In this document: piece by piece, positions 1,549 to 29,152 of the stretch
Layout of the letters: the number at the start of each line of letters is the position of its first letter
Position numbering within the stretch: the first letter of the stretch is position 1
Source of the DNA: a virus
IMG/VR virus record: IMGVR_UViG_3300020364_000316
Location: 1 to 29,152 of that record
Length of the DNA stretch: 29,152 nt
Strand: one strand, 5' to 3'
Program-made: the position numbers and the translations under genes
Notes under the pieces: generated by a model
The model's database searches: none
What the model saw: the letters and a program-made list of their open reading frames with translations, nothing else
Told to the model about the DNA's origin: nothing

Positions 1549-1557
1549 AACTAATCC

Positions 1558-2825: not shown

Positions 2826-2827
2826 TT

Positions 2828-9905: not shown

Positions 9906-10666
9906 CCGTATAACTCCTTATAAGTTCTTCTTATCCAATAATTTGCATCTCTACCCATATCATTTTGTGGTATAGCATTAAAATGATATACCCAACCTGC
10001 ATCTAAAAAATGTAATTCATCAGTCCACCAACATTGTTTATCTATATATAATAAATTTTTTCTAAATAAATCCTGTAAATTATAGCAATTTGGTAATATT
10101 TTTACATCAACCTTATTTTTATTTAACATAAAATTCAATATAGTTTGGTCTGTAGCCGTTTTTAACTTACTAATAGTTTTATTAATCCAATCACTATTAT
10201 CAGAATAATATTCTCTCATAGTATTAAAAAACCCTTTATGTGAATCATTGACAATCTGAAACCCTCCGTTAATATATGTCCAAGGTTTAACCTTCCTTTT
10301 ATCAAATAACTCTTCACCAAATCCTTTTATACTTCTTAATACCCATTCATAATCTCCATCATTCATCACTCCACAATATTTACCTTCAGATTCTTCAAAG
10401 AAATTAGAACAATCTGGATGAACTATTGTATCAGCATCAACCATAAGAATTTGGTCATATTCAATATTATTAGATTCTAATATATCAAACAAATAATATC
10501 TTTGCCAAGTTATTTTCATATAATCTATTGGATATAATAACTCATCTAATACTAACAATTCACTATTATTTTTATTACACCATTGTTTCCAACTATCAAT
10601 AGAATAGTCATAAGAAGAACCTCTTTCACTTATTTTTATAGCTGGAATGAATACTACATTATTCAT
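9902..10666 (-). CDS. GT-A glycosyltransferase
   Basis: The open frame extends to 10828, but the first 54 codons lie inside the preceding gene. The ATG at 10666 overlaps that gene's TAA (10659-10661), and the protein then begins MNNVVFIPAIKIS, a normal first strand, so I take 10666 (254 aa). YDQILMVDADTIVHPDC holds a clear DxD (DAD) metal-binding site. TYINGGFQIVNDSHKGFF and TATDQTILNFML match the acceptor/donor motifs seen in GT8-like and related GT-A transferases. HFNAIPQNDMGR near the end includes a histidine in the place often used for metal binding. Donor and acceptor are unknown. Confidence 0.78.
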   Translation of the reverse strand: MNNVVFIPAIKISERGSSYDYSIDSWKQWCNKNNSELLVLDELLYPIDYMKITWQRYYLFDILESNNIEYDQILMVDADTIVHPDCSNFFEESEGKYCGVMNDGDYEWVLRSIKGFGEELFDKRKVKPWTYINGGFQIVNDSHKGFFNTMREYYSDNSDWINKTISKLKTATDQTILNFMLNKNKVDVKILPNCYNLQDLFRKNLLYIDKQCWWTDELHFLDAGWVYHFNAIPQNDMGRDANYWIRRTYKELYG

Positions 10667-12305
10667 TAAAACCCCATTCTTCTTTTGTAAATACATTAAA
10701 TGGATAACCCTTATATAATTCCTTAACTTTGAAATTATAAATTCCTTCCCAATCTGTTTTATCTCTTTCACTGGATTTATTTTTTCTAGCGAAATAAAAC
10801 CGTGGTTGTAAAAAGTTATAACCATCAATTATTTTACTATAATTTTTTATTAAATCATCATCACTCTGTGCATCAAAGTATGCAAATTTTAATCTATTGA
10901 GTGAAAATATTTCTACATTTCCTTTCTTAATATGTTCAACCTCTCCACCTAATAACTGATTTCTCAGTGCTGTAGAAACTATTACATCTACATCATCATT
11001 TTGTCTAATTCCCATTAATGTAAGAATAGCACTTTGTGTTAAAGTATATTCTTCCCTCGGAAATCCCATAGAATCCAATTCTAAAATATTTCTAAGTTTA
11101 GAAACTGGAGAATAAACTCTATGTATACCATCCTTCTTACGTGGTTTATTATAAATATTATCCTTTAACATATAAAAAGGAAAATATTTTTCACCCCTTA
11201 TTAACCTGCCTATCATAGCACAGGCTCTATGATAACCGTGTCTAATAAATCCATTATCAAACTCTACAGGACTATTTCTAAGAAACTTTTCTATATCTAA
11301 ATCAGACATATCTTTCCTTTTCTTAAAATAATCTTCAGTTAAATTATGCCATCCAATCTCATGATGGTCATCAATATCATACTTAAATCCAGCCATCATT
11401 GTATTATAATATTGCCAATTAGTTGAATCTAATTTAACCTTCTGTCTATTTTTTTCATTCTTCCAATAATTTACAACATCACCAACTGTTTTTAACTTGT
11501 AGTCATTTAAAATAACTTCCTTTCCACCGCCACCTGATTGTAATTCCATTTGTAAAAAATAATCTAAATTAATAGGTTCGTATTCAATTTTAGTTTTCTT
11601 TCCTTTTCCTGTATGTTTTCCTAAACTTAAAAACCATTTATTGTTTCTTGAATCACCTTCCAAATAACTAAATTTTAAATCAGTTTTCCACGCCGCATAA
11701 TTAAAACTTAATTGATCTCTTTTACTGTTATACTTTATTTCATTCCACCACTCTTCCATAGTCTCAATACAATCTTTTTCATTATGTTTCCGTAATATAA
11801 TCATTCCTGTAATTAAACCATTATTCTTAGGATATCCTTCTTTTTTATATCTATCAATTTGATTTTTTATTAATACAGGATTATCCTTATAATTACCATT
11901 ATTTTTCTTACCTAATTGAAAAATAGCATCAGCTTCCTTATAAATACAATTTCTAGGGTCAAGTTTATTCTGTGCATGATCAAAGAAAGATACATTACAA
12001 CTATTAATTAACTGATCTATATTACCCCTAACTGTTAAGTTACCATCTATAAAAATACTATACTCATATTCATTTAAAAACCTATGTGGTAAAATTTTAT
12101 ATCTTTTAGCACTTCTCGTTAAATCTGTATAATAAGGTGTACACTTCCTAATTTCCCATACATCTGAACTTAAATTTTCACTATCAGTAAAACAAATGTA
12201 GTCCCACCCTTTATCAATAAAATGTGGATCTACTAAAGTGTCATAATCACCAAATATAGTTGTATATATAACTTTACTGTTCATATATTTGACCAAATAG
12301 CTCAT
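10659..12305 (-). CDS. DUF616-like glycosyltransferase fused to GxHR/nucleotidyltransferase-like module
   Basis: This is a 548-aa fusion. Residues about 8-235 look like a DUF616/TOD1-type transferase: VIYTTIFGDYDTL (12-24), WDYICFTDS (34-42), YEYSIFIDGNLTV (80-92) and RDQLSFNYAAW (196-206). The C-terminal part carries RHGYHRACAMIGRL (355-368) and, some 70 residues later, MGIRQNDDVDVIVS (431-444). These are a GxHRxA motif and an acidic DDxD motif like those of the separate protein at 4320-5330. Methionine 8 (12284) is an alternative start; neither candidate has a clear Shine-Dalgarno, but ATG at 12305 makes a 4-base overlap with the upstream stop. The order suggests one enzyme transferring a sugar and the other handling a phosphate or nucleotidyl group. 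Confidence 0.72.
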   Translation of the reverse strand: MSYLVKYMNSKVIYTTIFGDYDTLVDPHFIDKGWDYICFTDSENLSSDVWEIRKCTPYYTDLTRSAKRYKILPHRFLNEYEYSIFIDGNLTVRGNIDQLINSCNVSFFDHAQNKLDPRNCIYKEADAIFQLGKKNNGNYKDNPVLIKNQIDRYKKEGYPKNNGLITGMIILRKHNEKDCIETMEEWWNEIKYNSKRDQLSFNYAAWKTDLKFSYLEGDSRNNKWFLSLGKHTGKGKKTKIEYEPINLDYFLQMELQSGGGGKEVILNDYKLKTVGDVVNYWKNEKNRQKVKLDSTNWQYYNTMMAGFKYDIDDHHEIGWHNLTEDYFKKRKDMSDLDIEKFLRNSPVEFDNGFIRHGYHRACAMIGRLIRGEKYFPFYMLKDNIYNKPRKKDGIHRVYSPVSKLRNILELDSMGFPREEYTLTQSAILTLMGIRQNDDVDVIVSTALRNQLLGGEVEHIKKGNVEIFSLNRLKFAYFDAQSDDDLIKNYSKIIDGYNFLQPRFYFARKNKSSERDKTDWEGIYNFKVKELYKGYPFNVFTKEEWGFNE

Positions 12306-13171
12306 AAATAAATTTCATTTTTAATAAAATTACCCCCAATAGGAAATTGTCTTTGTGCTGTGTGCACCTCTGAATATCTACATACAGTTTGCATAGTACC
12401 ACATTGATTTCCTACATTTAACTTTGCCTTTGATCTAATATACAATTGTATTCGTATATCCATATGTCTTAAATCCAAAGCCTTATTTATAAAATTAAAT
12501 GGTGTATCTTTTAACTGTTTAAAAGAATAATAAAAATACGGAAGTGGATTATCTTTTAATACCTTCGTAATCTTTTCAGTATCACTATTATAAGATTTTT
12601 CATCATACTTTCCACATTGAGTTCCAAACCTATCAGAAATTAAAAGTGCTCCAAATTCATCACTACCAACTGTTTCACTTATGATTGAATCTCCAATACC
12701 TATTTCTTTATCAGACCAATATAACTCAGGTTTATTATCTACATACTCATTTGGTTCAAATTGCCAGAATTTTAAAATTTGTTCAACTAAAGGAACATTA
12801 GGATTATCTTTCTCATATATACGATAATGGTCATGAAATATTTCACCACGAATATAATCCTTAAATGAATCTACATAAGGATTATTTTTAAAAATGATTT
12901 CCATATTATTATGTGAATAACTAAGTAACGAGTAAACCATTTCTTTTGATGATACATAAACTTTACAATCAGGATACTTTTCTTTAAGTAATCGAGGCAT
13001 TGCAGATATAATTCCCCAATCACCGATACCGTGCGCCATTCTTAAAATCGTAAATTGTTGAGATTCTAAATACTCATCTGGTATCCGTAATCCCTCAGAT
13101 TGTTCAAACCCTAATTTTTCAACCTCATCTACGTGATAAAGTTTATTGTCTATTATTCTCCAAAATATCAC
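12302..13171 (-). CDS. GT9 heptosyltransferase-like protein
   Basis: This is a 289-aa protein read from a GTG at 13171, 29 bases inside the upstream gene. FTILRMAHGIGDWGIISA followed by LLKEKYPDCKVYV matches the N-terminal glycine-rich motif of GT9 enzymes such as heptosyltransferases. NVGNQCGTMQTVCR near residue 255 resembles their C-terminal SNDSGPMHLA motif. GT9 enzymes use ADP-heptose or related donors to build the lipopolysaccharide core. Sequence drift is large, so the precise substrate cannot be read off. No in-frame ATG lies near the 5' end before the GT9 motif, which supports a GTG or other non-ATG start. The presence of a GT9 protein points to an outer-membrane glycan target. Confidence 0.68.
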   Translation of the reverse strand: MIFWRIIDNKLYHVDEVEKLGFEQSEGLRIPDEYLESQQFTILRMAHGIGDWGIISAMPRLLKEKYPDCKVYVSSKEMVYSLLSYSHNNMEIIFKNNPYVDSFKDYIRGEIFHDHYRIYEKDNPNVPLVEQILKFWQFEPNEYVDNKPELYWSDKEIGIGDSIISETVGSDEFGALLISDRFGTQCGKYDEKSYNSDTEKITKVLKDNPLPYFYYSFKQLKDTPFNFINKALDLRHMDIRIQLYIRSKAKLNVGNQCGTMQTVCRYSEVHTAQRQFPIGGNFIKNEIYL

Positions 13172-13772
13172 TATATAACCTGTTTTGTTGTTCTTGTTTA
13201 TCTATTGTCTTATGATGATATAAACTTAATTCTTCATGTGGTGGAAGATGTGAATATTCTTTAGTTCCTACAATATATTCATGAACTTTTCTTGTCCAAT
13301 GAATTGAATCTACATTTCTATATACTCGTGCTTGATAATCTGGATAGTTTACCCAACCTTTACTACTAACTTTCCATCCCCATTTGTCTATATGTTCCTG
13401 TGTAATACCTTCAACTGTATTTACTCTTGGTATCCAAACCAAATCAACATCATTCATTTCTAATATAGTATGTATTTGTTCCATTAATATTTCATGTGGA
13501 ATTTCATCTGCATCTAGATGAAATATATACTCACCATCACACATTGACTTTGTATGATTTTTTAAATCTGAAAAATTGCCACTAAATTCATATGGATGCC
13601 AACTAAATCCAATATTACTTTTCAAATATTCTTCTATATCTTTAGTGCCATTGTTAGTGTCATAAGTAATTACTATTTCATCTTGTAACTCTTTATGTTT
13701 CAATAAAAACGTAACTAATTTTTGTAACTCATCTTCTTCATTACAAACGGTAATCGCATAACTTATTTTCAT
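13143..13772 (-). CDS. GT2-family glycosyltransferase
   Basis: This 209-aa protein is clearly a family 2 transferase of the WaaE/LgtF type. It begins ISYAITVCNEEDELQKLV (residues 3-20), continues with DEIVITYDTNNGT, has NFSDLKNHTKSMCDGEYIFHLDADE containing the DxD (DAD), and ends ARVYRNVDSIHWTRKVHEYI. Such enzymes add a hexose to lipopolysaccharide core or other glycans. AGGTAGATAA precedes the ATG, and the stop lies within the GT9-like gene. The length is a little short compared with 250-aa relatives, but the motifs are intact. Confidence 0.88.
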   Translation of the reverse strand: MKISYAITVCNEEDELQKLVTFLLKHKELQDEIVITYDTNNGTKDIEEYLKSNIGFSWHPYEFSGNFSDLKNHTKSMCDGEYIFHLDADEIPHEILMEQIHTILEMNDVDLVWIPRVNTVEGITQEHIDKWGWKVSSKGWVNYPDYQARVYRNVDSIHWTRKVHEYIVGTKEYSHLPPHEELSLYHHKTIDKQEQQNRLYSDILENNRQ

Positions 13773-14318
13773 TTATCTACCTGGATGAACTCTCGGTTTT
13801 CTTCTACCATACTTTGATTCAAGGAATGTCCATATTTCTGTCATCAAATCAGGATCCAAAGTATATATAAGTCTACACGTAACCTTCCTTAACTCTTTAA
13901 ACTTATATGTTCTATATGCTTTTCTTATTTTAGAAAGTGCTAAAATACGTTGAGGACCAAAATGTTGTATAGTTCCAGCACCAAACTGTAAACCATCCAT
14001 CATTTTTACACTACCCATTTTAGTTCGTTTTAAAAATAATGGGTCAAGAACAAGAACTAACCTTCGTTTTTTATTAGATCCAGCCCCATATACAAATTGA
14101 ATTAAATCTCCTTTTGCAACGTCAATCCAATCAATTAATCCTGCCTTTTTTAGTATTTCCTCACCTTTAGGAGTATCTTTTGCAACTTCCTTTAATTTAG
14201 GATGTTTATCTGATTTTGGTTTATCTTCTTCTTCTTTAGATTTTAATTTCTTTTCTGCTTTTTTTACTTTTTTATCAATACCATCAAGCAATTCATCCAT
14301 TAAACTTTTTTCTGCCAT
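13773..14318 (-). CDS. Lysine-rich protein of unknown function
   Basis: I do not recognise this 181-aa protein. Residues 1-55 are dominated by Lys, Glu and Asp and look like a charged, probably helical linker. A more compact region follows, with KGDLIQFVYGAGSNKKRRLVLVLDP (a strand-rich, SH3/KOW-like look, not established) and a basic C-terminus KYGRRKPRVHPGR. No signal peptide or membrane segment is visible. It sits between the zinc-ribbon gene and the GT2 gene without a gap (AAAGGATTTATAAA before the ATG). Its basic tail is compatible with binding nucleic acid or an acidic glycan. It may be a phage structural or packaging protein interrupting the glycan cluster. Confidence 0.75.
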   Translation of the reverse strand: MAEKSLMDELLDGIDKKVKKAEKKLKSKEEEDKPKSDKHPKLKEVAKDTPKGEEILKKAGLIDWIDVAKGDLIQFVYGAGSNKKRRLVLVLDPLFLKRTKMGSVKMMDGLQFGAGTIQHFGPQRILALSKIRKAYRTYKFKELRKVTCRLIYTLDPDLMTEIWTFLESKYGRRKPRVHPGR

Positions 14319-14319
14319 T

Positions 14320-14763
14320 TTATAAATCCTTTACAATGCCCATATCTTTACAGGCGTCTAAAAATTCATTCTGACCATAAATATTAGCAGATTCTACATC
14401 TAATCGTTTTTCCTCTCCATTATACTTTTCTCTATCTTCTTCTGGAATATCTACAACTTTAGCATATTTCCAACTCCATTCATCGTGAGTACCCTCAGGA
14501 AAGATTATACCTTTTGGACCCATATTTAAAACACTTGGAATCCACACAATATCTCTTTCCCAATCTGCAATTTGTAACTCTACTATTAATTGTGGGGATG
14601 CTTCTAATGAAGAAAGTAACTCATCACTACCATATTTAAATTTAGAATTGCTTGTATAACCACATTGAAAACATAAATAACTATGAAAATTATCCTCTAC
14701 TACATATTCATCAAAACACTGTGATTTTGATTTACATACAGGACATTTTATTTTTGATTCCAC
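14320..14763 (-). CDS. Zinc-ribbon protein, unknown function
   Basis: This is a 147-aa protein read from a GTG start at 14763. It opens with KCPVCKSKSQCFDEY and then YLCFQCGYTSNS, giving two CxxC pairs (residues 8/11 and 31/34) of a classic zinc ribbon. The remaining 110 residues (IVWIPSVLNMGPKGIIFPE and WSWKYAKVVDIPEEDREKY) have no motif I recognise. Paired with the lysine-rich gene downstream, it forms a two-gene insert among glycosyltransferase genes. A zinc ribbon of this kind often serves in nucleic-acid or protein binding. AGAAGG lies upstream of the GTG. Confidence 0.78.
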   Translation of the reverse strand: MESKIKCPVCKSKSQCFDEYVVEDNFHSYLCFQCGYTSNSKFKYGSDELLSSLEASPQLIVELQIADWERDIVWIPSVLNMGPKGIIFPEGTHDEWSWKYAKVVDIPEEDREKYNGEEKRLDVESANIYGQNEFLDACKDMGIVKDL

Positions 14764-14764
14764 T

Positions 14765-16099
14765 TCAATTTACCTTCTTCAACGTAGGTAATGTAATCTT
14801 TGGTGGTTCTGTATCTTTTACTTTCTTTAATTTTGGAAGTTTTAACTTAACTTCCTTCGGAAATTCAGGAACATTATCGTCAAGAATTTTCTCAAAAATT
14901 TCAGTCATTTTATTAAGGGAAAATCTAGATTTATTTATTGTTCCTTGCTTTGCTGAATTTAAAGCAAAACGTTTATAATTTTGAAATACATTTTTTAAAA
15001 CTTTCGAAGCCATTTGATAATTAACCGTAAACCAATAAGAATCTTTAACATAAATTCCCTTTTGAAATGATTGTTTACTTACCTTCTTCATAGAACCACT
15101 CAAAAGAACAGATAAATTCTTAGTAAGAAAATCAACATGTCCACTCCAATTCGGTGCTATAACTGGTTTTTGACTAATTGATGCTTCTAACAGTGGTCTT
15201 CCAAATCCTTCACCGTGAGTAAATGTTACATGAGATTTTACTTTAGGATGATTATATAACTCATTCATTTCATCATCTGTTAAATCTCCATGCAATAAAT
15301 AAATATTTGGTAATACTTTAGCATCTACAGTATTTTTTATATCTTCAATTTTAACTAACATTTCTCGTTTATCTATTAAAGAAAACGTAGCTCCACTTGA
15401 TTTCATTAAAAGTGCAGGACTATTTTTCACATTCTTAAATGTTTCTAAAAATGTTTTAACTAACATACCTAAATCTTTTCTATCATTTCCCAAGTCTCCC
15501 TGTAACCAATGTCCTACAAACAAAAAACAGAAATCTTCTTTTATTTTTGAAAATTTATCAGTTAATTCCTTTGAAAATACTTTAGTTTTCTTAAAAATAT
15601 TAGTATCAGTTCCTTCAAATAAAACTTCTATGGGTTTATTAACTTTAAGTTCACCTATCTTTTCTTTACTTTGTTCATCAACTCTATCAAATGACATATT
15701 TTCTAAAGTTTCTTTTGTAAACTTAGAAGGAACTATATTTAAATCCATTCTATTCATTCCCTCAACCCACTCTGGTGGACATGCAGTTGTTTCAATACCC
15801 GCAGTAATACCAATATTATACTTTGCAACCGGCTGAAATTCATTTGGAATAACAATATGAATATGAACATCTGGTTGTTTTTCTAAATTTACATCAACCA
15901 TTAATCTATCTATAATAACTTTATCATTAGGATCTGCATCATTTAATGCATTTTGTGGTGTTGTTCCCCATCTAACTGGAAAAATTTTAACATTATACTT
16001 ATCCATTGAAATCAAAGATCTACAAATATCTCTACTATGTGAACCATAACCACTCCGTGTTGCAACAGGAGCAGTAACTAAAACTAAAGGTTTACTCAT
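14765..16099 (-). CDS. GT4-family glycosyltransferase with basic C-terminal tail
   Basis: This is a 444-aa GT-B enzyme. The N-terminal domain begins VLVTAPVATRSGYGSHSRDI, a usual acceptor-domain start with its glycine loop. CFLFVGHWLQGD is the start of the donor domain. EGFGRPLLE (297-305) carries the E-x7-E that contacts the nucleotide sugar in GT4 enzymes. After about residue 405 the protein has an extra lysine-proline tail with two similar blocks, KLPKLKKV and TLPTLKKV, which are not part of the fold and may dock to an acidic partner or membrane. An AGGAAGGA Shine-Dalgarno precedes the ATG. It is downstream of the second GT4 gene with an 11-base gap. Confidence 0.88.
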   Translation of the reverse strand: MSKPLVLVTAPVATRSGYGSHSRDICRSLISMDKYNVKIFPVRWGTTPQNALNDADPNDKVIIDRLMVDVNLEKQPDVHIHIVIPNEFQPVAKYNIGITAGIETTACPPEWVEGMNRMDLNIVPSKFTKETLENMSFDRVDEQSKEKIGELKVNKPIEVLFEGTDTNIFKKTKVFSKELTDKFSKIKEDFCFLFVGHWLQGDLGNDRKDLGMLVKTFLETFKNVKNSPALLMKSSGATFSLIDKREMLVKIEDIKNTVDAKVLPNIYLLHGDLTDDEMNELYNHPKVKSHVTFTHGEGFGRPLLEASISQKPVIAPNWSGHVDFLTKNLSVLLSGSMKKVSKQSFQKGIYVKDSYWFTVNYQMASKVLKNVFQNYKRFALNSAKQGTINKSRFSLNKMTEIFEKILDDNVPEFPKEVKLKLPKLKKVKDTEPPKITLPTLKKVN

Positions 16100-16110
16100 A
16101 ACTATCCTTC

Positions 16111-17481
16111 CTATACTTTAACAATTTCATATCTATTTCTTGGTGTCCATTTATCAAATGCAGTATCCATTTTATCTATAAAATTTTGACACATCATTTC
16201 TGCCGTCATACCTGCTTTTTCACTAAAAGCATATTCTCTACCTAATTCCCCACATCTTTTTCTTTCTTCATCTCCCATATCATACCATTCTTTAATTTTA
16301 TCTGCAGTATCATCCCACCTACATCTATCATCAAAAATATATGGTGTTGGAATTGAACCCACTAATGAAATAGAAGAAGGAAATACTGGTTTTGCCCATT
16401 CACCACATTCTTTATATCTACCATCATGGTTTGATCCCCATTCAGTAGTATAATCATCTACCGTTAAATATGAACCATCATCTTTCTTAAAACCACATTG
16501 ATCCTGTAAACCACCTGTAGTATTTACTATAATAGGAGTTTCTGTTAATAAACTTTCAGTAGTACTTAATCCCCATCCTTCATTAGATGCAATATTAATT
16601 GTAACATCAGCCATATTATAAAGAAAGTTCATATGTTTATTATCTAATTTTTGATCACTAAAATATATTTTTATATCAGGTGCAACTGCCTTAACCAATT
16701 CAGGTAAATCTGTACCATTCTCATCACGTGGTTGTGTATGCATTAGTAAAGCACATTTATCAGCTTTTTCTTTTGGTAACATATCACAGAATGTTTTAAA
16801 TGCCAGAACAATATCACCTGGCATTTTTCTACGAATATTTCTACTATTATAAAGTACTATAAACTCTATTTCTTTATCAGCTAAGCCAGCCCTAAATGAT
16901 TTAAGTTCTTCCCAATCTTCGTGTAATGAAGTAATTGGAAAAAACGATTCAGTATTACATCCATGTGGAACATAAGTAACTTGCCAATCTTCATATTCTG
17001 TTCTAACATTTTTTACAATATTTACTGTCTGTCTCGAAATATTCATAAGAAGGTCTACAGAATCATAAAAATTACGATTATACATTGGAAAGGGTAAATC
17101 GTCCCATATGTTATAATAATATATTGGAACGTGTTGTCTGATTTCATGTTCCATTTGAAATAACCATCCCCAGAATCTTGGGTCTGTATAAATAAGAAGG
17201 GCATCAACTTGATGCCTTACTATTAAATCTCTTACTATTTCTTGATTTCCATAACCACTAGTAGGATATATCATCAATTCAGCATCTTCAATACCTGTTT
17301 CTTCTCTAACAGATTCGTTCATATCAACAATCTTACCTGCTTCTGGATGTTTGATTGCACCACCTATTTGAACCCAATTATAATGCTGTAATGTACCTAA
17401 AACTATTTCTCTCGACATTGTGCCAACTCCCGATGACATTCTTAAATCATCTGAGAGTAACATAATTGTTCTCTTCGCCAT
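16111..17481 (-). CDS. GT4-family glycosyltransferase
   Basis: This is a 456-aa GT-B enzyme. RTIMLLSDDLRMSSGVGTMS (residues 4-23) is the N-terminal glycine loop, FIVLYNSRNIRRKMPGDIVLA opens the donor domain, and EGWGLSTTE (301-309) is the E-x7-E donor-binding motif. Between them, YYYNIWDDLPFPMYN suggests an acceptor pocket. It is the first gene of the glycan block in the direction of transcription, with AGAGAGGTTTT before the ATG. It is complete and full length for its family. The product glycan is unknown, but two different GT4 enzymes side by side suggest successive additions to one chain. Confidence 0.88.
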   Translation of the reverse strand: MAKRTIMLLSDDLRMSSGVGTMSREIVLGTLQHYNWVQIGGAIKHPEAGKIVDMNESVREETGIEDAELMIYPTSGYGNQEIVRDLIVRHQVDALLIYTDPRFWGWLFQMEHEIRQHVPIYYYNIWDDLPFPMYNRNFYDSVDLLMNISRQTVNIVKNVRTEYEDWQVTYVPHGCNTESFFPITSLHEDWEELKSFRAGLADKEIEFIVLYNSRNIRRKMPGDIVLAFKTFCDMLPKEKADKCALLMHTQPRDENGTDLPELVKAVAPDIKIYFSDQKLDNKHMNFLYNMADVTINIASNEGWGLSTTESLLTETPIIVNTTGGLQDQCGFKKDDGSYLTVDDYTTEWGSNHDGRYKECGEWAKPVFPSSISLVGSIPTPYIFDDRCRWDDTADKIKEWYDMGDEERKRCGELGREYAFSEKAGMTAEMMCQNFIDKMDTAFDKWTPRNRYEIVKV

Positions 17482-20603: not shown

Positions 20604-21161
20604 TTACACTCCTTCTATTTTATCTATTATTTCATACTCTAAACACTGTTTTGCCGTTAAATACAAATCTGTTTTTGTTTTTTCAGCCCAATACTCTCTA
20701 GATTTAGCAGATACGTCTGATAATATTTTATTAATAGTTTCATGTAATTCTTTTAAATGATCCGAAGATTTAAGAATATCAGAAACCTTTCCTTCTTCAA
20801 AAATAGAACCTTCATGAATCATTACAGTAGCATTTTCAGACATACTTCTATCTCCAGTTCCACATGCTAAAATTACAGCTGCTGCCGACATAGCTGCTCC
20901 ATAACAACGTGTATTTACTTTAACATCAAATGATTGCATAAAATCAATAATTCCTAACATAGAATAAACATCTCCCCCATAAGATGATAATATTAAATTT
21001 ATAGGTTTATCTGAATTTACTCTTTTGCACACTTCAAATCTAGAACTTACATATCTAACATCAGTAATGTCTAATGAATCTGATAAGTAGACTACATTAT
21101 TATGTAAATCTAAACCATAATCTAATTCTTTATACATTAATTGCAACTCTTTATTATTCAT
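20604..21161 (-). CDS. ClpP-like serine protease (second of two)
   Basis: This is a 185-aa ClpP-fold peptidase (family S14). YGAAMSAAAVIL places the nucleophile at S92, MIHEGS the histidine at H116, and TDLYLTAKQCLEYEIID the aspartate at D165, the Ser-His-Asp triad in the usual order. ILSSYGGDVYSMLGIIDF matches the GGxxxxGxxI segment that shapes the oxyanion region. Host ClpP needs an AAA+ partner; none is in this window, so it may borrow the host's ClpX or act alone. A scaffold or head-maturation role has precedent among phage ClpP-like proteins, but the gene sits with replication genes here. AAGGAG precedes the ATG. Confidence 0.9.
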   Translation of the reverse strand: MNNKELQLMYKELDYGLDLHNNVVYLSDSLDITDVRYVSSRFEVCKRVNSDKPINLILSSYGGDVYSMLGIIDFMQSFDVKVNTRCYGAAMSAAAVILACGTGDRSMSENATVMIHEGSIFEEGKVSDILKSSDHLKELHETINKILSDVSAKSREYWAEKTKTDLYLTAKQCLEYEIIDKIEGV

Positions 21162-21768
21162 ACTTTCTCCTTACTCGCTTATCTAAATAATACACATAAA
21201 TGTGCTTTGATGGTAATTTTTTTACAAAGATATTAGGGTCTCCCGCATCATACCTTCTCTTAATTTCTCTACTATATGGACGTTTTCGTTGATTTAAGGA
21301 ACGTGAATGCATTTCCTTTCCATCTACCATTAAAATACTGCCCTTTCCAGTCTTTCCTTTGTATATGAAATTTGAAGCTTTATAAATCACTCCACTATGT
21401 CCATGATGAGGATCTGCAAATGATACTATAACTTGAATATCTGTATTTTTCTTTAACCATTTTAATGTCTGTCCTATAAAATAACTTTCTGTATTTGTTG
21501 GAGTATCATCAATACATACTAACCTTCTAAGTTCATATATTCTAAGTGGATCGTCAGGATTATACTTTTTAGCCGTTGCTGGCATTGAAGGCCATGCATA
21601 CATCATAGCACCTATCATAGTTGGTAAACCAAAATTCCCTTCTTTATATAACCCAAAACAATTAGTACTTTGAACTCCATTTACATTTTGAGAATAATGA
21701 TACTTTTCAATAAATGGTGCAATAGATCTACGAAGAACTTCTTCTACCGTAAAATCTCTAACTTTCAT
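21154..21768 (-). CDS. Mom-like GNAT-fold DNA-modification protein (second of two)
   Basis: This is a 204-aa protein matching the Mom-like family related to the phage Mu enzyme that modifies adenine. ELRRLVCIDD (79-88), NTESYFIGQTLKWLKK (92-107) and SFADPHHGHSGVIYKASNF (116-134) are the family's conserved string: an acidic-arginine start, a serine-asparagine helix and a DxxHxGxIYxAxN motif. An N-terminal IEKYHYSQ segment (20-27) is shared with the related gene at 23841-24611. Mom-type enzymes are acetyltransferase-like and add a group to the N6 of DNA adenine, shielding phage DNA from restriction. The start has no clear Shine-Dalgarno and overlaps the gp62-like stop. The exact chemistry is not established from sequence. 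Confidence 0.76.
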   Translation of the reverse strand: MKVRDFTVEEVLRRSIAPFIEKYHYSQNVNGVQSTNCFGLYKEGNFGLPTMIGAMMYAWPSMPATAKKYNPDDPLRIYELRRLVCIDDTPTNTESYFIGQTLKWLKKNTDIQVIVSFADPHHGHSGVIYKASNFIYKGKTGKGSILMVDGKEMHSRSLNQRKRPYSREIKRRYDAGDPNIFVKKLPSKHIYVYYLDKRVRRKYE

Positions 21769-22238: not shown

Positions 22239-22332
22239 CTACAGAGATACCTCTTCTGAGTTTATCACCTTTACCAGCCCCACTAACTCTCTTTTCCTTT
22301 TTAATTTTTGTTTCATTCTTTTTCTTTGACAT
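22141..22332 (-). CDS. Small basic protein with GKGD motif
   Basis: This is a 63-aa protein rich in lysine. SGAGKGDKLRRGISVDEWGKK (residues 17-37) followed by WEAIF is similar to a group of short phage proteins with a GKGDxxR start and a WxxxWexIF end that are known only as conserved hypotheticals. GAAGTTATCTA precedes the ATG, and the gene is coupled to the upstream ClpP-like stop. Its 3' 98 bases overlap the gp62-like frame, an unusually long overlap in this compact genome. The basic charge suggests nucleic-acid binding, but the function is not known. Confidence 0.66.
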   Translation of the reverse strand: MSKKKNETKIKKEKRVSGAGKGDKLRRGISVDEWGKKWEAIFRKKESAVVVDKGSTDESEGTT

Positions 22333-22934
22333 TAGATAACTTCATCTATTAACCTATATTTTAAACAAGTGTTAGCATCCCATAGTAAATCATGTTTCAA
22401 TATTTCATCTAACTTTCTCATTGGAACTTTTGTATACTCTTTATATACATTTTTAATAGTTTCCATCATTAAATCTAAATTCTTTTTCTCATCTTCTATT
22501 TCAGAATATTTTCCCCACAATGATGAAGATAGTTGATGAATCAACATATAAGAATTTCTACTCATAAATCGCTTCCCACCAACTACTGAAATAAATGTTG
22601 CTGCACTCGCACTAAATCCATCTACATAAGTTTCAACAGGAACTTTACATCTTAATACCGTATCCATTGATGAAATACCTGCGGTAATCGAACCACCACC
22701 TGAATTTATGAGTATTTTAATTGAAGGTGGATTTATGTCTAAATTATTTGCAAGGGTTAAACTTTTAGATTCTATCTCACCCACCTTTTTATTTAATTCT
22801 ACAACAGATTCTCGATTAACATTTGCATAAAAATAAATTTTATTTTCGTGAACTGCTATATGTTTTTCTTCTGGTTTTGGTTTTTGTACTAATTTTTGTG
22901 GGGCTTTCTTTTCACCCCAATATTTTTCGTCCAT
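22332..22934 (-). CDS. ClpP-like serine protease (first of two)
   Basis: This is a 200-aa ClpP-fold peptidase with a lysine/proline-rich N-terminal extension (about 30 residues). VDGFSASAATFI puts the nucleophile at S110, MLIHQLSS the histidine at H133, and HDLLWDANTCLKYRLID the aspartate at D182. ILINSGGGSITAGISSMD is the GG loop. It is clearly diverged from the second copy at 20604-21161. The gene separates gp44 from gp62. GGGAG lies eleven bases before the ATG. Why a peptidase should be embedded in the clamp-loader operon is not known; processing of a phage protein or of a host target is possible. Confidence 0.9.
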   Translation of the reverse strand: MDEKYWGEKKAPQKLVQKPKPEEKHIAVHENKIYFYANVNRESVVELNKKVGEIESKSLTLANNLDINPPSIKILINSGGGSITAGISSMDTVLRCKVPVETYVDGFSASAATFISVVGGKRFMSRNSYMLIHQLSSSLWGKYSEIEDEKKNLDLMMETIKNVYKEYTKVPMRKLDEILKHDLLWDANTCLKYRLIDEVI

Positions 22935-23851
22935 TATTTTATTACTCCCAATAGTTCAATTAACATAGCCATAGCATTGATCTCCTTATCAACTACCTGA
23001 CCATCACTTAACTCATACTTAGCAATTACTAAAATACATTCAGCTACATGACCCTTTCCATAACTATCTACTTCATCATATAATAATCTAAACAAATCTG
23101 CGAAATCTCTAATCTGAGAGTCTGCTACTAACTGTCTTATATTTTTAAATGCACTTTTTCTATCTTGTGTCTTTAATATTTCTAATAACTTTAACTTATA
23201 ATCATTCTCTACTATACTCTGTTTATCAACTACCAACTTACCATTAATGGACTGTCGTTGCGCAGAATTTATAACTCGTCTAATATCAGGGTATCCAGAA
23301 TTTACTAATATTTTCAAATCATCTAATTCATAAACAATATTTTCCTCTTTGAGAATCTGAACCATTCTTTGTGCAACTTCTGACCTAGAAGGTGGTATTA
23401 TTTGAAAAGACTGACAACGACTTTGTATTGGGTCTATGATCCTCTCTACATAATTACAAGTCAAGATAAATCTACAATGTTTTGAAAATGTTTCCATAAG
23501 GTTACGAAGAGCAGCTTGGGAATGAGGACTTATATAATCTACCTCATCTAAAGTAATAATTTTATTATCTTTAAAACCAATTGTAGAAGCAAAATTTCTA
23601 ACTTTAGGTATCAAATCATCAACTCTTCTTACATCTGATGCGTTAATATATAGATAATCACATTCTATCTGATTCACTAATATTTTTGCGAGAGTGGTCT
23701 TACCTGTACCAGCCTTCCCATATAGAAGAAGATGTGGTAAGTCGCCACTCTCTATATACACCGACACTTTACTTTTGAGATGATCGTTCCCAATGTATGT
23801 GTCGAGAGAGGAAGGCCGATATTTTTCTACCCATAATGTATTACTCGTCAT
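22934..23851 (-). CDS. 44: Clamp-loader ATPase, gp44-like
   Basis: The large clamp-loader subunit: an AAA+ ATPase that, as a tetramer with gp62, opens the sliding clamp and loads it at primer ends. WVEKYRPSSLDTYIG is the family opening, GKAGTGKT (45-52) is Walker A, LDEVD (101-105) is Walker B, TCNY (131-134) is sensor 1, and SRC (144-146) carries the trans-acting arginine finger that defines clamp loaders. It has 305 residues, close to T4's 319. AAAGGATTTT precedes the ATG, which overlaps the Mom-like gene by 11 bases. All key catalytic residues are present. Confidence 0.95.
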   Translation of the reverse strand: MTSNTLWVEKYRPSSLDTYIGNDHLKSKVSVYIESGDLPHLLLYGKAGTGKTTLAKILVNQIECDYLYINASDVRRVDDLIPKVRNFASTIGFKDNKIITLDEVDYISPHSQAALRNLMETFSKHCRFILTCNYVERIIDPIQSRCQSFQIIPPSRSEVAQRMVQILKEENIVYELDDLKILVNSGYPDIRRVINSAQRQSINGKLVVDKQSIVENDYKLKLLEILKTQDRKSAFKNIRQLVADSQIRDFADLFRLLYDEVDSYGKGHVAECILVIAKYELSDGQVVDKEINAMAMLIELLGVIK

Positions 23852-24611
23852 AAAATCCTTTTTCGTGTACTTCGTGTTTAATAACTTCTGCTTTATTGAT
23901 AGCTTCCTTTGGATAAGGTAACTGAGGATGTTTCAAGTTAGTAATAAATAGTTTCTTTTCTTTTCTACTACCAATAAAAAATAAATATCTATGTTTTTCT
24001 GCTTCCTTCTTTAACCAAAATGTATGTCCAATTCGATTTTTTAAATGTTCAGCATTACTACTACCATACATAGAGTAAACAGTTCTACTATGAATCCATT
24101 CTCCATCTTCTTCTATTTTCAAACTAAACGTAGGAGCCATTTGAATATCTCCACATCCTTGATACAACCAATTGGTTGCTTGATATATTTTTCCAGTATG
24201 ATTCTGCTCTGGATCGGCATATGAAATCAATACCTTTACATCTGGTGCATTTTTCTTTAACCATTTAAATGATTGTGAAATAACAAACGATTCTATATTT
24301 TTTCCATAATCATCATAAATAACTAACCGAGTTAGTTCCAATATATTCTTAGTAGTAAGTTCTAAGTCCTCTTTAAATATTGAACCTAGAACTCTTCTAC
24401 CTATTGGATATCCGTAAGCAATACATCCAATAAGTTTTTCTTCTTTTTCATTAAAAAACTTATGTTCATTATCAGATTGATAAAATATGCCTATTGGATA
24501 TCTACAAGAAGATAATCTACCACTATAGTGATTCTTCTCTATAAACTTCCTAGCTATTGGTTTTGAAACTAATCTAAGTGATACTTTTAAAGTATCAACA
24601 TACTCTTCCAT
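23841..24611 (-). CDS. Mom-like GNAT-fold DNA-modification protein (first of two)
   Basis: This is a 256-aa protein related to the shorter copy at 21154-21768. ELTRLVIYDD (92-101), NIESFVISQSFKWLKK (105-120) and SYADPEQNHTGKIYQATNW (130-148) repeat the same conserved string. An IEKNHYSG segment (24-31) is also shared. It carries about 70 further residues after the core that the other lacks. Mom-type enzymes modify adenine in phage DNA and thus protect it from restriction. It lies between gp45 and gp44 with a TAATG overlap at the start. There is no clear Shine-Dalgarno, so it may depend on translational coupling to the clamp. Which base and group it handles is unknown. Confidence 0.78.
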   Translation of the reverse strand: MEEYVDTLKVSLRLVSKPIARKFIEKNHYSGRLSSCRYPIGIFYQSDNEHKFFNEKEEKLIGCIAYGYPIGRRVLGSIFKEDLELTTKNILELTRLVIYDDYGKNIESFVISQSFKWLKKNAPDVKVLISYADPEQNHTGKIYQATNWLYQGCGDIQMAPTFSLKIEEDGEWIHSRTVYSMYGSSNAEHLKNRIGHTFWLKKEAEKHRYLFFIGSRKEKKLFITNLKHPQLPYPKEAINKAEVIKHEVHEKGFYDE

Positions 24612-25330
24612 TAGTCAACATCAGTAATTGCAACTAAATAATAAGTAGCATCATATTCATCTACTTTAAAATTTATACGTGCCAATCCTTGTTCACTAAT
24701 TTCAAGTACTGCACTTTCACATTCTTTATTTGCTACTAATACATCCTTAAATAAATCAGCATTAAAAGAAACTTTTTTCATATCAACATAAGTTTCTGTT
24801 TTTACTGGAATTGTAACTCTATTTGTATTTATCTTTGAATACCCAATAACTAATTTAACTACATCATTATCTGTTATCACAGTAAAACTATCCGTATCTG
24901 ATAATGCAGATTTTCCAGCTATAAATTTCTGAATAAAAGTATTATCAACTTTTACCTGTAATCCAAATTCTGGAAGATCTTTTAGTGATGGGGGATTATT
25001 AATAACCGATAAATCTGATAACATATAGTTAACTGTAGCATTAGAATCATCTACTTTTAATGCAATAGCCTTATCTCCAGCCTTCATCAAGTTTAATTCA
25101 ACGTCATCAGATAAAACTCCTAAAAGCTTAACCATTTGTTCTGTATCATAAACTCCAAGACTAATGTCTTCAAAAGACCATCCATTCATTGATAGTTCAC
25201 CTAAAAGTGATTTGTCTCCAGTCATAAATCTAGTCTGTAACTTTTTCTTACCACTGTTCAAAATGACTGAATTGACATTACCACCTAAATGATATTTATC
25301 AATAAACCGAGTCAATTTATGTTTATCCAT
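24611..25330 (-). CDS. 45: DNA polymerase sliding clamp, gp45-like
   Basis: This is a 239-aa T4-type sliding clamp, a processivity ring of three subunits around DNA. LQTRFMTGDKSLLGEL, VYDTEQMVKLLGVLSDDVELNL and FQKF-like segments in the second half fit the two-domain clamp fold of gp45; T4's is 228 aa. The overall strand pattern and the gene's position between polymerase and clamp loader are the main support, because clamp sequences drift widely. A strong AAGGAG lies at 25339-25344, with a TATAAT-like box at 25348-25353 just upstream. The 86-base gap before it is the longest in the replication block and may hold a promoter. Confidence 0.85.
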   Translation of the reverse strand: MDKHKLTRFIDKYHLGGNVNSVILNSGKKKLQTRFMTGDKSLLGELSMNGWSFEDISLGVYDTEQMVKLLGVLSDDVELNLMKAGDKAIALKVDDSNATVNYMLSDLSVINNPPSLKDLPEFGLQVKVDNTFIQKFIAGKSALSDTDSFTVITDNDVVKLVIGYSKINTNRVTIPVKTETYVDMKKVSFNADLFKDVLVANKECESAVLEISEQGLARINFKVDEYDATYYLVAITDVD

Positions 25331-25396: not shown

Positions 25397-25446
25397 AGAA
25401 TCTTTCTATAGTCTTACTAGCAGAATCTTTCTATAGTCTTACTAGC
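25397..25446. repeat. Perfect 25-bp tandem duplication at the polymerase 3' end
   Basis: The 25 bases at 25397-25421 are repeated exactly at 25422-25446. The upstream copy on the minus strand encodes the polymerase's last residues and the second copy lies across and after its stop codon at 25417-25419. With one copy removed, the frame would read on as ...TIERFF and stop; with both it ends ...TIERFC. So the duplication swaps the final Phe for Cys without changing the protein length. Confidence 0.95.
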
Positions 25447-27924
25447 ATCAGTTGGTTCTCCCCAATCCATGGTATCGTAAAACATAGTTATTTTTTTCTT
25501 TAATGATTTACTATAAATTTTATCATAATCAACACTTTCTCTTATAAACGACAAAATTTCTATAGGGTCTTCATGACCTTTGTACGCTAAAGTTTCCAAT
25601 CCATATTGATTCTTTTTTAAATACACCCATTTTATTTTACTTATATTTTCTATCTTACTATACTTCTTATCTCTATTAAAATGTTTCAATAAATCATTGT
25701 ATGCAAGTGCAGCTTTAACGTGAACTGGAGCTCCTTTATAATATCTTGAAAACATAGAAGTATTTTGTTCATCTGCTTGCAAATATTTACTCATACCTTT
25801 TACTGTAGTAGGTGTTGCTATTTCATCTATATCCATAGTTTTCATTTTATCTTTAAAATTTAATATTCTTTCATCAATTTTTTCCTTTGGAACATCCGAT
25901 AATATATCTTCTAAAACTTCTTTAAGTATTAGTCTAAGAGCTGTAGGGAAATTGCTTCTAACTGTATCTATTCCCTTCATTAATATTTTATTAACCTTAA
26001 CTCCATTATCACTAATAATTTTCATTCCATATCTTTTCTTAACAATAAACAATCCAGATCTCGCTATAATTTCTTGCTTAATTTCAAATCTATGATTATC
26101 AATATTACAAAATCTCTTTGAAAATTGACCATACATTCTATTAATAAAACTTTGAACTTCTGATGCAATCTCACTAATTCTTTGAGTCATCATTACATCA
26201 CTTAATTTTTGATTTGGAAAACGTTTTTCAATTATAGGTAATGCAGAAAAGAACACTGAATCAGTATCAATATAAATACAATAATCTTTATCATCACCTA
26301 ATTCATTATTATAAAAATGATTACCAATAACTTTTGTATATTTAATTAATTCCTGTCCAGTAGTAGTAACTGCTTCAGCATTATCTAAATCATAAAAACG
26401 AAATACTGGCAATCCTAACACACCATACAATGAATTTAATACAACTTTTTGAATATACTGCATTCTATTAAAATACTGATACTTTTCCATATTATCTTCA
26501 TCTGCAAACTTTTTCATAAGCTTTCTATATTCATTTCTTTTATCAAACCACGATGAAAGTAGAGATGGTATTAAACCTTTTTTATTATTTCTATAAATTA
26601 CACCATTTGTAGAAATTGAAACGTTATTATTATCTAAATATTCTTTTAATTTTACCTCTGATAACTTAACTTCTTTACCACTTTTATTAACAAGAGTATA
26701 TGTTTTATTTATACCTGTTACAAACTCTCTAGCATTCCAACCATCTACTTTTCCAACCTTAGTCTCTGGGGATATATTTAAACTCATAATTGTAGATGGA
26801 TACATAGAGGTAATATCTAAATCATAAACCCATTCATATTTACCTCTTTGTGGATCTTGAACATAAGCACCAATAAACTTTTCATCCTTTTTAATTAATT
26901 CTTTTCCCCTTGGATCTTTATTTGGAGCAACTATACCTAACTTTTTTAAATATACCAAAATAGCTCCTTCAAGATATCTACTTGACATATGAATATCCTC
27001 ATAAGGAACATGACCTAAATGACAAATACCTCTAGCTATATCAATAAAATCTAACTTATCATTCAATTTTTTAACTAATCTAACGTCATGAATATTATAT
27101 TCAACAAATCTTTTTAAATCACTTTCATATAAATCATTAAGTGTACCTTCATAAGAAATTTTCTTTATCCCTAATTCACTATTTGCTATATCATCCAATC
27201 TGTATGAAGATTTTTGACTGAATGTAAATCGTTTATATAACGCTAAATAATCTAAACAAGATACTCCAGCAATTCCAAATTGTTGACGATAATTACTGTA
27301 ATGTACTTGATCAATATGAGAAAGACAGTTTGCTACATCTTGTCCTAATATTTGACTAGCTCTATTATACAGATATGGAATATCAAAATTATTAGTATTC
27401 CATCCACTTAATATAGTTGGTTGTATTTCCCTATATTTAACAAAAAACCTATTTAAAAGTTCTGGTTCACTTGAAAATGCTTCAACGGTTATGTTTTCAC
27501 CAAAATCTACATCTAAACTAAGAGATTCATCAAGAACATAACAGTAATATTTATCCATTATTGAATCATATAATGCGATAGATGTAATTTTATTTTCCGC
27601 TTTTGAAGGTAACGGAAACCCTTTAGTAACTTCAACTTCAATATCAAAAAACATAATACGATGACCTTCTGACATATCATCAGAATCAGTATAAGTATCT
27701 ACAAGGGTTCTCATTTCAGGATTAACATCAGATTCATATAACCCAGTTTGATTTTTTTCCCATTTATAAATTTTCTTTAATCTATCACCATATAACGATA
27801 CGTCTCTACCATTCCTATCTTTAATGTAAGCATAATGCTTATAGGGTAGAACTACATGACCTTTCCGATCATCCCAAATATGTACTTTCTTTTTGTAATT
27901 ATCGTAATAAATATTTTGAAACAT
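25417..27924 (-). CDS. 43: Family B DNA polymerase, gp43-like
   Basis: This is the phage replicative DNA polymerase with a 3'-5' exonuclease, 835 aa against 898 in T4. Exonuclease motifs: D94/E96 in FFDIEVE, the GWNTNNFD segment (174-181), and Y276/D280 in YNIHD. Polymerase motifs: A, DITSMYPS (370-377); B, KxxxNSLYG (493-501); C, YIDTDS (551-556), plus the KKRYG segment. All catalytic acids are present. The start is supported by an N-terminal domain like T4-type polymerases, but there is no Shine-Dalgarno: the sequence before ATG is GGGGTTTTTATAATCTAA. The C-terminal tail ERFC is altered by the 25-bp duplication; in T4-like phages the extreme C-terminus binds the sliding clamp. Confidence 0.97.
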   Translation of the reverse strand: MFQNIYYDNYKKKVHIWDDRKGHVVLPYKHYAYIKDRNGRDVSLYGDRLKKIYKWEKNQTGLYESDVNPEMRTLVDTYTDSDDMSEGHRIMFFDIEVEVTKGFPLPSKAENKITSIALYDSIMDKYYCYVLDESLSLDVDFGENITVEAFSSEPELLNRFFVKYREIQPTILSGWNTNNFDIPYLYNRASQILGQDVANCLSHIDQVHYSNYRQQFGIAGVSCLDYLALYKRFTFSQKSSYRLDDIANSELGIKKISYEGTLNDLYESDLKRFVEYNIHDVRLVKKLNDKLDFIDIARGICHLGHVPYEDIHMSSRYLEGAILVYLKKLGIVAPNKDPRGKELIKKDEKFIGAYVQDPQRGKYEWVYDLDITSMYPSTIMSLNISPETKVGKVDGWNAREFVTGINKTYTLVNKSGKEVKLSEVKLKEYLDNNNVSISTNGVIYRNNKKGLIPSLLSSWFDKRNEYRKLMKKFADEDNMEKYQYFNRMQYIQKVVLNSLYGVLGLPVFRFYDLDNAEAVTTTGQELIKYTKVIGNHFYNNELGDDKDYCIYIDTDSVFFSALPIIEKRFPNQKLSDVMMTQRISEIASEVQSFINRMYGQFSKRFCNIDNHRFEIKQEIIARSGLFIVKKRYGMKIISDNGVKVNKILMKGIDTVRSNFPTALRLILKEVLEDILSDVPKEKIDERILNFKDKMKTMDIDEIATPTTVKGMSKYLQADEQNTSMFSRYYKGAPVHVKAALAYNDLLKHFNRDKKYSKIENISKIKWVYLKKNQYGLETLAYKGHEDPIEILSFIRESVDYDKIYSKSLKKKITMFYDTMDWGEPTDASKTIERFC

Positions 27925-27938
27925 TTAGATTATAAAAA

Positions 27939-28003
27939 CCCCATTTTCGATACTGGAATATACAACTAAAACCCTATATAGATTCTTTTTATGGAAAATG
28001 GGG
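27939..28003 (-). promoter_or_regulatory. Long-loop 10-bp inverted repeat before the polymerase gene
   Basis: CCCCATTTTC at 27939-27948 is the exact complement of GAAAATGGGG at 27994-28003. In the minus-strand transcript the second arm is followed by TTTTTAT, 14 bases before the polymerase ATG. That is the form of an intrinsic terminator with an unusually long (45-base) loop. Its first arm overlaps the hairpin at 27999-28022, so the two cannot form at the same time. Possible attenuator; not tested. Confidence 0.4.
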
Positions 28004-28022
28004 AGTATATTTCAACTCCCCA
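27999..28022 (-). terminator. Probable intrinsic terminator after the TonB receptor
   Basis: An 8-bp perfect stem (TGGGGAGT at 27999-28006 with ACTCCCCA at 28015-28022) with an 8-base loop lies about 10 bases beyond the receptor's TAG. On the minus strand it is followed by a short ATTTTCC stretch, so the U-tract is weak. It would stop transcription from the receptor gene before the polymerase, unless the overlapping long-loop pairing forms instead. Confidence 0.5.
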
Positions 28023-28031
28023 ATAAGCCAT

Positions 28032-29152
28032 CTAAAAATTCACAGACATTCCTACATTAAAGTATCTTGGTGTTCCAAGAAATACTTCAGCATTATGTGC
28101 TGCGTGAACTTTGTCCCCATAGCTATTATATTGACTATGGTCCACTGCATCTTGTACAAATATTGCGTCTGTCGCATTAAATATATGTGCAAAAGCGGTG
28201 AAGTTATACCCACCAATAGTAGGTAGGGCATATGAAGCATGTAAATCCACTTTGGAATATCCAGGTGCTTTCCATACTTGTTCTCTATCTGCATCGGCGT
28301 CTGAACCATCATACTCTCTTGCGTCAGGACTCCAATCAGAATAATTATCATCATACTGATTGTATACTGCCTGTAATTGTAATCCTTTTACAGGAGTAAG
28401 AGTTCCAACAAGTGCGTAAGATGTTTGAGGTTGATCACCTACAAACAAACCATCAAGTGCGTAAGAATACGGAGTGGTTGTTTGTCCAATGACTTGACCA
28501 TCTTCGTTAAACTCATCTTCTTGATAGTTACCATCGGCATCACCATCGAACTTCCAAGTTCCAATACTTACTATAGCATCTAATCTAAGTAAATCAAGTA
28601 CTTGTGTAGAAGCTTCAACTTCAATACCTTGGTGTTTCTGATTAATTCCACTTAGGAATATAACATCAGTATCACCACTGGAACCTTGTCCAGATGTTAC
28701 AGATTTGGTAAGATTTCTGTCTTTCCAATCTGTACTGTATGCACCAACCTTGATATTTCCAACAGCTGACGAAAAGTTTACACCAGCTTCTGAGCTGACG
28801 AATCTTTCGTTTGCAGGATCTGAAGCAACTGTACCATCAAAATAAATTACATTATCCATGATGGGTGGTTTTTCAACAATACCAAAGTTACCAAAAACAC
28901 TAACGTTATCGGAAACATCGTACATTGCTCCACCTTTGAACTGAGTAGTACTAATAGCTTCAGCTTTTATTACTTCATCAGCAACTGTGAAATGATCTTG
29001 GTAAGAGTATTTAATACTTGATACTCCAGCCATACCATAAGCAGAAAGTGGACCTGAAGAATAAGATCCTTGCAGGAATCCACCTAACCAATCAACTGTA
29101 GTTTCATTGTGATAAGCAATAATATCACCTAACTCAACATTTTTACCATCAG
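28032..29152 (-). CDS. TonB-dependent outer-membrane receptor, C-terminal part (5' end outside window)
   Basis: The minus-strand frame is open from the window edge (29152) to a TAG at 28032, at least 372 codons; an internal ATG at 29033 is not the start. The protein is a run of alternating beta-barrel strands such as GGFLQGSYSSGPLSAYGMAG, LQAVYNQYDD and VDLHASYALPTIGGYNFTAFA. It has the receptor-typical HIFNATDAIFV turn near the end and finishes YFNVGMSVNF with a C-terminal Phe, as outer-membrane barrels do. Such proteins import iron chelates, vitamins or sugars, powered by TonB. The plug domain lies outside. The DNA is visibly less AT-rich than the phage genes, consistent with recent host origin. 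It runs in the same direction as the polymerase gene and is followed by a hairpin. A contig-assembly join is the main alternative. Confidence 0.85.
   Translation of the reverse strand, partial: DGKNVELGDIIAYHNETTVDWLGGFLQGSYSSGPLSAYGMAGVSSIKYSYQDHFTVADEVIKAEAISTTQFKGGAMYDVSDNVSVFGNFGIVEKPPIMDNVIYFDGTVASDPANERFVSSEAGVNFSSAVGNIKVGAYSTDWKDRNLTKSVTSGQGSSGDTDVIFLSGINQKHQGIEVEASTQVLDLLRLDAIVSIGTWKFDGDADGNYQEDEFNEDGQVIGQTTTPYSYALDGLFVGDQPQTSYALVGTLTPVKGLQLQAVYNQYDDNYSDWSPDAREYDGSDADADREQVWKAPGYSKVDLHASYALPTIGGYNFTAFAHIFNATDAIFVQDAVDHSQYNSYGDKVHAAHNAEVFLGTPRYFNVGMSVNF

Follow-up and report, generated by a model that had tools for sequence, protein, structure and literature searches.

A host-derived TonB-dependent receptor gene with a candidate pseudoknot RNA leader in the replication block of T4-like marine phages

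Why should a virus carry, next to its DNA polymerase, a gene for a TonB-dependent receptor (TBDR), an outer-membrane protein of bacteria? The question is raised by the window, i.e. the whole stretch of 29,152 bp analysed here, in which all long genes are open frames on the minus strand (Table 1). The T4 gp43-type polymerase gene (polB), the sliding clamp and the clamp loader are all present, marking the window as DNA of a T4-like phage. We confirmed that the C-terminus of a TBDR lies beside this polymerase on the same strand, as the preliminary description had stated, with the gap, put there at about 108 bases, measuring 107 bp. The TBDR frame is truncated at its 5' side by the contig end, the N-terminal part and the 5' end of the gene lying outside the window; the fragment aligns to residues ~570-940 of full-length phage copies and taken alone (372 aa) yields no Pfam match. 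The window also encodes two separate proteins of the Mom DNA-modification family and two ClpP-type proteases, each of the latter near one Mom-family gene, and, in a long gene block, glycosyltransferases together with enzymes acting on sugar nucleotides (GDP-mannose dehydratase type, epimerase, DegT aminotransferase, UDP-glucose dehydrogenase type), which may serve a surface glycan or DNA modification.

Table 1. Features of the window (IMG/VR virus record IMGVR_UViG_3300020364_000316, 29,152 bp).
Feature	Position	Strand	Basis
TBDR, C-terminal 372 residues, barrel	28032-29150	-	open frame
Terminator-like GC-rich hairpin directly after the TBDR stop	27999-28022	-	scan hit TGGGGAGTTGAAATATACTCCCCA
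Intergenic stretch between TBDR and polB, 107 bp	27925-28031	-	sequence
polB, T4 gp43-type DNA polymerase	25417-27924	-	Pfam DNA_pol_B PF00136, PF03104; PHROG 262, E 5.1e-184
Sliding clamp, gp45-type processivity factor	24611-25330	-	PHROG 223
Mom-family gene	23841-24611	-	PF25680
Clamp loader, gp44-type AAA ATPase	22934-23851	-	Pfam AAA; PHROG 168
ClpP-type protease	22332-22934	-	
Mom-family gene	21154-21768	-	PF25680
ClpP-type protease	20604-21161	-	
Sugar-nucleotide enzyme and glycosyltransferase block	574-17481	-	

Relatives of the TBDR fragment are encoded on 103 viral stretches, and the TBDR-polB junction recurs in dozens of viral contigs, which supports the view that the phage really carries a TonB receptor. 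The usual gene order is nrdJ (encoding a B12-dependent ribonucleotide reductase), TBDR, terminator-like hairpin and polB. Among the non-redundant TBDR loci with at least 3 kb of downstream flank, polB was found within 2 kb downstream on the same strand in 21 out of 32; counted over all collected loci, which partly overlap, TBDR-polB occurs in 124 and nrdJ-TBDR in 168. Half (26/52) of the close polB relatives with an upstream flank of 3 kb or more carry the TBDR, which always ends within 2 kb of polB, and those without it have nrdJ at that site, sometimes with a glutamine synthetase assigned to the GlnII type by NCBIfam, below the curated cut-off. Thus the TBDR is a recurrent accessory gene with a favoured site and, being missing from about half of these relatives, is not essential. 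The largest TBDR contigs (216,422 bp and 131,840 bp) encode the T4 gp23 major capsid protein, the window being a fragment without gp23, and gp32 was found in eight of the nine TBDR contigs tested. In the 216-kb contig TBDR and nrdJ stand apart. The phage polymerase was found in none of 80 bacterial TBDR loci. Two further arrangements were observed around this site: in L311, L318, L325 and L358 glutamine synthetase lies directly upstream of polB, where other phages have the TBDR, and in L053 (1736-3301) a 521-aa flavin-enzyme frame, tryptophan halogenase-like by eye, is positioned upstream of the TBDR.

Full-length phage receptors comprise ~905-985 aa, have intact frames and are 61-90% identical to the window copy over the shared part. 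They are built of a signal-peptide-like segment (read by eye from the sequence), a carboxypeptidase-regulatory domain, the Ton-box-like segment EVLASRA, a plug and a barrel. CarboxypepD_reg scored above the Pfam cut-off in full-length relatives and Plug (PF07715) in five of them (E about 5e-13 to 9e-15), the window copy being truncated before the plug. An AlphaFold2 model of one full-length relative (pLDDT 83.1, pTM 0.79) has the barrel-with-plug fold, its best matches among solved structures being TonB receptors, which include FhuA complexes with T5 pb5 and with the superinfection-exclusion lipoprotein Llp. The substrate could not be read from the fold, as TM-scores to siderophore, PQQ and B12 receptors were too alike to choose between them. 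Membership in the SusC family was likewise rejected, the phage copy reaching 52.9 bits and a host copy 65.3 bits against SusC/RagA NCBIfam TIGR04056, far below its curated cut-off of 368 bits. Among PHROGs, part of the protein is matched by a single family, of unknown function, and a collection of named phages gave only matches below 30% identity, or of 36% over a short piece. Of 14 receptor-bearing phage contigs searched, 13 gave no TonB gene, so a TonB of the host would have to serve. The single positive among the 14 is a 108-aa protein (L421 1366-1692, on the contig of L044) that begins with a signal-peptide-like segment, has a TonB C-terminal domain (PF03544, E 9.2e-11) and could bind the Ton box of the receptor.

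The nearest bacterial relatives of the receptor belong to Fidelibacterota (Marinimicrobia/SAR406), where 97 out of 245 genomes have a strong TBDR match, mostly in single copy. In a tree with 38 phage copies these form one group within the Fidelibacterota receptors (SH-aLRT 100), and a second tree with 22 phage copies recovered one group again (support 100/100). The phage TBDR is thus nested in a bacterial clade and is under purifying selection in phages, with one exception to the phage grouping: the TBDR of L093 (986-3733), a 4.3-kb contig of a Fidelibacterota MAG, falls inside the phage clade, and the AU test rejects a phage-only clade (p 5.9e-5). This contig is without the pseudoknot leader described below, and has by eye an adjoining DegT-like gene; its TBDR may stem from a back-transfer or from a second acquisition, or the contig may be mis-binned. 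In Fidelibacterota the homologue stands among housekeeping genes (dnaG and yqeY types by eye), and deriving a substrate from these neighbours was rejected on that ground. From the ancestry of this one gene we take Fidelibacterota as the putative hosts of the phages; in the 245 genomes no close phage polymerase was found, only distant T4-like ones (30-37% identity) in four. The receptor DNA is indeed less AT-rich, as had been noted (37.8% GC vs 27.3% in polB, the excess lying mostly at codon positions 1 and 2), but this is not a sign of recent import, because the codon usage, compared with that of the polymerase as GC3, is phage-like: 0.20 in the window TBDR vs 0.15 in polB, within a range of 0.13-0.23 across the window genes. 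Mean GC3 is 0.23 for phage TBDRs, 0.21 for polB and 0.35 for Fidelibacterota TBDRs, the gene having ameliorated in the phages. Recent import from a host, judged from GC, was therefore rejected.

The phage gene has, in addition, control signals of its own. In the relatives of the window a 39-nt element is located a few tens of bases upstream of the TBDR start codon, composed of P1 (ACAGG/CCUGU), a 5-nt loop, P2 (GACRCA/UGYGUC) and an A-rich 7-nt loop, as in an H-type pseudoknot, and an A-rich stretch lies between it and the ribosome-binding site. Over 67 distinct leader sequences the pairing is kept in 97.8% of cells (P1 95.2%, P2 100%). Five pairs have changed on both sides, with 38 double-change cells vs 8.9 after shuffling, and when partners were slid the pairing dropped to at most 57.1%; sequence relatedness weakens the shuffle control, not the sliding control. 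The predicted H-type pseudoknot with two interleaved helices is thus supported by covariation. A pattern scan of viral contigs, with most letters fixed and the covarying P2 positions free to mismatch, placed the element, among the 174 sites listed (which include overlapping loci), before a recognisable TBDR in 173 and before a truncated TBDR start in one. With a covariance model, the 216-kb contig gave a single copy and six polB loci lacking the TBDR gave none; on the host side, 25 loci yielded no convincing match (best E 0.26) and 120 Fidelibacterota genomes no match, and the exact pattern is absent from all 245 genomes. A control of the leader by gp32, considered as a possibility, finds no counterpart in the gene 32 leaders of the TBDR-bearing phages, which are without the element. 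Rfam gave no plausible match to the leader at gathering or permissive thresholds, and the known riboswitch classes were rejected on this ground. We regard the predicted pseudoknot before the TBDR as a new, previously undescribed leader RNA. Many but not all leaders also have, upstream of the pseudoknot and at varying distance from it, a TTTCACATAC-like motif (e.g. L003 8219-8227); as a phage-wide promoter it was rejected, since only three sites occur in the 216-kb contig. At the other end of the gene, a GC-rich hairpin equivalent to that of the window follows the TBDR stop in nearly all phage loci, its stem being kept while the letters vary. In L079 (11120-11269) two tRNA genes directly follow the stop instead of the hairpin.

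The ancestry of the gene indicates that a forerunner of these T4-like marine phages acquired a complete TBDR from a Fidelibacterota bacterium. On balance we consider it somewhat more likely than not that the gene has been kept as a working auxiliary receptor for uptake during infection under control of the pseudoknot. The phage would make the receptor during infection, the host would export it and insert it into its outer membrane, and host TonB would energise it by way of the conserved Ton-box-like segment, so that a scarce nutrient could still be imported with the expression of host genes shut down. The timing or the amount of receptor made may be set by the pseudoknot together with the A-rich stretch, acting either as a translational operator or as a ligand-sensing switch. 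A working receptor made during infection is the simplest account because the domains are complete, the surface is host-like, the plug and the Ton-box-like segment are conserved, the gene is under purifying selection and it has dedicated control signals.

The main rival to uptake is superinfection exclusion or receptor replacement, by which the phage copy would displace, dilute or mask the receptor of the host and thereby keep competing phages, or the progeny of the phage itself, from adsorbing to the infected cell and its debris. TonB receptors are known to serve phages as receptors, the FhuA complexes with T5 pb5 and Llp being among the structural matches, and the sugar-nucleotide and glycosyltransferase block of the window could remodel the cell surface as well. 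A decoy or mask, however, need not keep the parts for energy coupling, and these are strictly kept: the plug has an identity of 0.89 within the phage copies, 0.91 within the host copies and 0.87 across the two, and the EVLASRA-like segment, a putative Ton box between the N-terminal domain and the plug, is retained across phages and hosts. Only four fixed differences separate phage from Fidelibacterota TBDRs in 939 positions, and the predicted loops, with limits approximated from predicted secondary structure, diverge no more between phage and host than they do from one host to another. Uptake and a block to superinfection had both been offered in the preliminary description; that plug, Ton-box-like segment and loops are conserved speaks for a working transporter and against exclusion, the only evidence to do so, and on these comparisons of sequence we regard exclusion as unlikely, if the most serious of the alternatives.

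An import of cobalamin or another corrinoid for the phage's own B12-dependent NrdJ appears less likely still. Such a role is suggested by the neighbourhood, as 28 of the 37 non-redundant loci with sufficient flank have nrdJ directly upstream of the TBDR and the nrdJ product scores above the cut-off of NCBIfam TIGR02505 for adenosylcobalamin-dependent ribonucleotide reductase. Yet nrdJ precedes polB with or without the TBDR, and on the host side cobalamin riboswitches are found in 118 of 149 Fidelibacterota genomes, while none of 30 such loci has a close TBDR homologue and the cobalamin riboswitch RF00174 is absent from eight host loci of the homologue. A receptor of the BtuB type is disfavoured as well, the cobalamin riboswitches of Fidelibacterota preceding other genes.

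That the TBDR is a functionless passenger of host origin heading for decay would agree with its being missing from about half of the close polB relatives, but is strongly disfavoured by the selection and covariation data, and we give this reading very little weight. The frames are intact, the gene has its own covarying leader and a kept terminator-like hairpin, and dN/dS is 0.163, lower than that of polB (0.238), ratios that are rough as many pairs are near synonymous saturation; over matched pairs TBDR pN is 0.66 of polB pN. An assembly chimera or bacterial contamination of viral contigs, which the preliminary description had considered and for which one could cite the window end inside the TBDR gene and the widespread bacterial homologues, is refuted and of negligible probability, because a second contig (IMGVR_UViG_3300035250_000518) matches the window over 10,157 bp including the junction with one mismatch (99.99%), the TBDR-polB arrangement is repeated in dozens of viral contigs, many of them with only 60-70% protein identity to the window genes, GC3 is phage-like and the leader RNA is absent from hosts.

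Returning to the working receptor, its presence suggests that phages with the TBDR affect import into the infected cell. Studies of how phages control host metabolism have so far dealt mostly with intracellular enzymes, and here a recurrent phage gene appears to change the outer-membrane traffic of uncultured ocean bacteria; the TBDR may also mark phages of Fidelibacterota. A wider reading, which we put forward tentatively as a possibility, is that widespread T4-like marine phages run their own uptake receptor within the replication programme by means of the new pseudoknot RNA, which would sense a small molecule or the state of replication and would represent either a riboswitch of a new class or, after that of gene 32, a second pseudoknot operator of the T4 type. 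The covarying leader offers a concrete handle, as its ligand or binding protein would show the timing of the TBDR and could reveal its substrate.

The layout of the leader resembles that of the gene 32 operator of T4, T2 and RB69, where an H-type pseudoknot upstream of the ribosome-binding site is followed by an unstructured A-rich stretch (PMC3014915); it differs in preceding a receptor gene and in having no protein known to bind it. In the literature we found a single paper that describes a TonB receptor of phages in this sense and none linking Marinimicrobia phages to TonB: a SusC-like TBDR in the marine megaphage Mar_Mega_1 and in LR745206 was proposed as an auxiliary gene for carbohydrate uptake (PMC9723777). 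The likeness lies in a phage-encoded TBDR in the ocean (PMC9723777). Unlike that of Mar_Mega_1 and LR745206, the TBDR described here has its place within a T4-type replication block, recurs across dozens of contigs, forms a clade derived from Fidelibacterota, has its own RNA leader and scores below the SusC/RagA cut-off, and the LR745206 protein is 29% identical to it over just 18% of the length. The core-type TBDR of Fidelibacterota (e.g. L085) is up to about 75% identical over the full length and shares the carboxypeptidase-regulatory N-terminus, the domains and the Ton-box-like segment; it differs from the phage gene in standing alone among housekeeping genes, in its higher GC3 and in the absence of the pseudoknot leader. 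T4-like cyanophages carry psbA and other host-derived auxiliary genes, and psbA, like the phage TBDR, is a host-derived gene under strong purifying selection across a T4-like group, although it encodes a photosystem protein and not a surface receptor. The phage TBDR is thus a host-derived auxiliary gene, which is a known kind, and the RNA leader is the new part.
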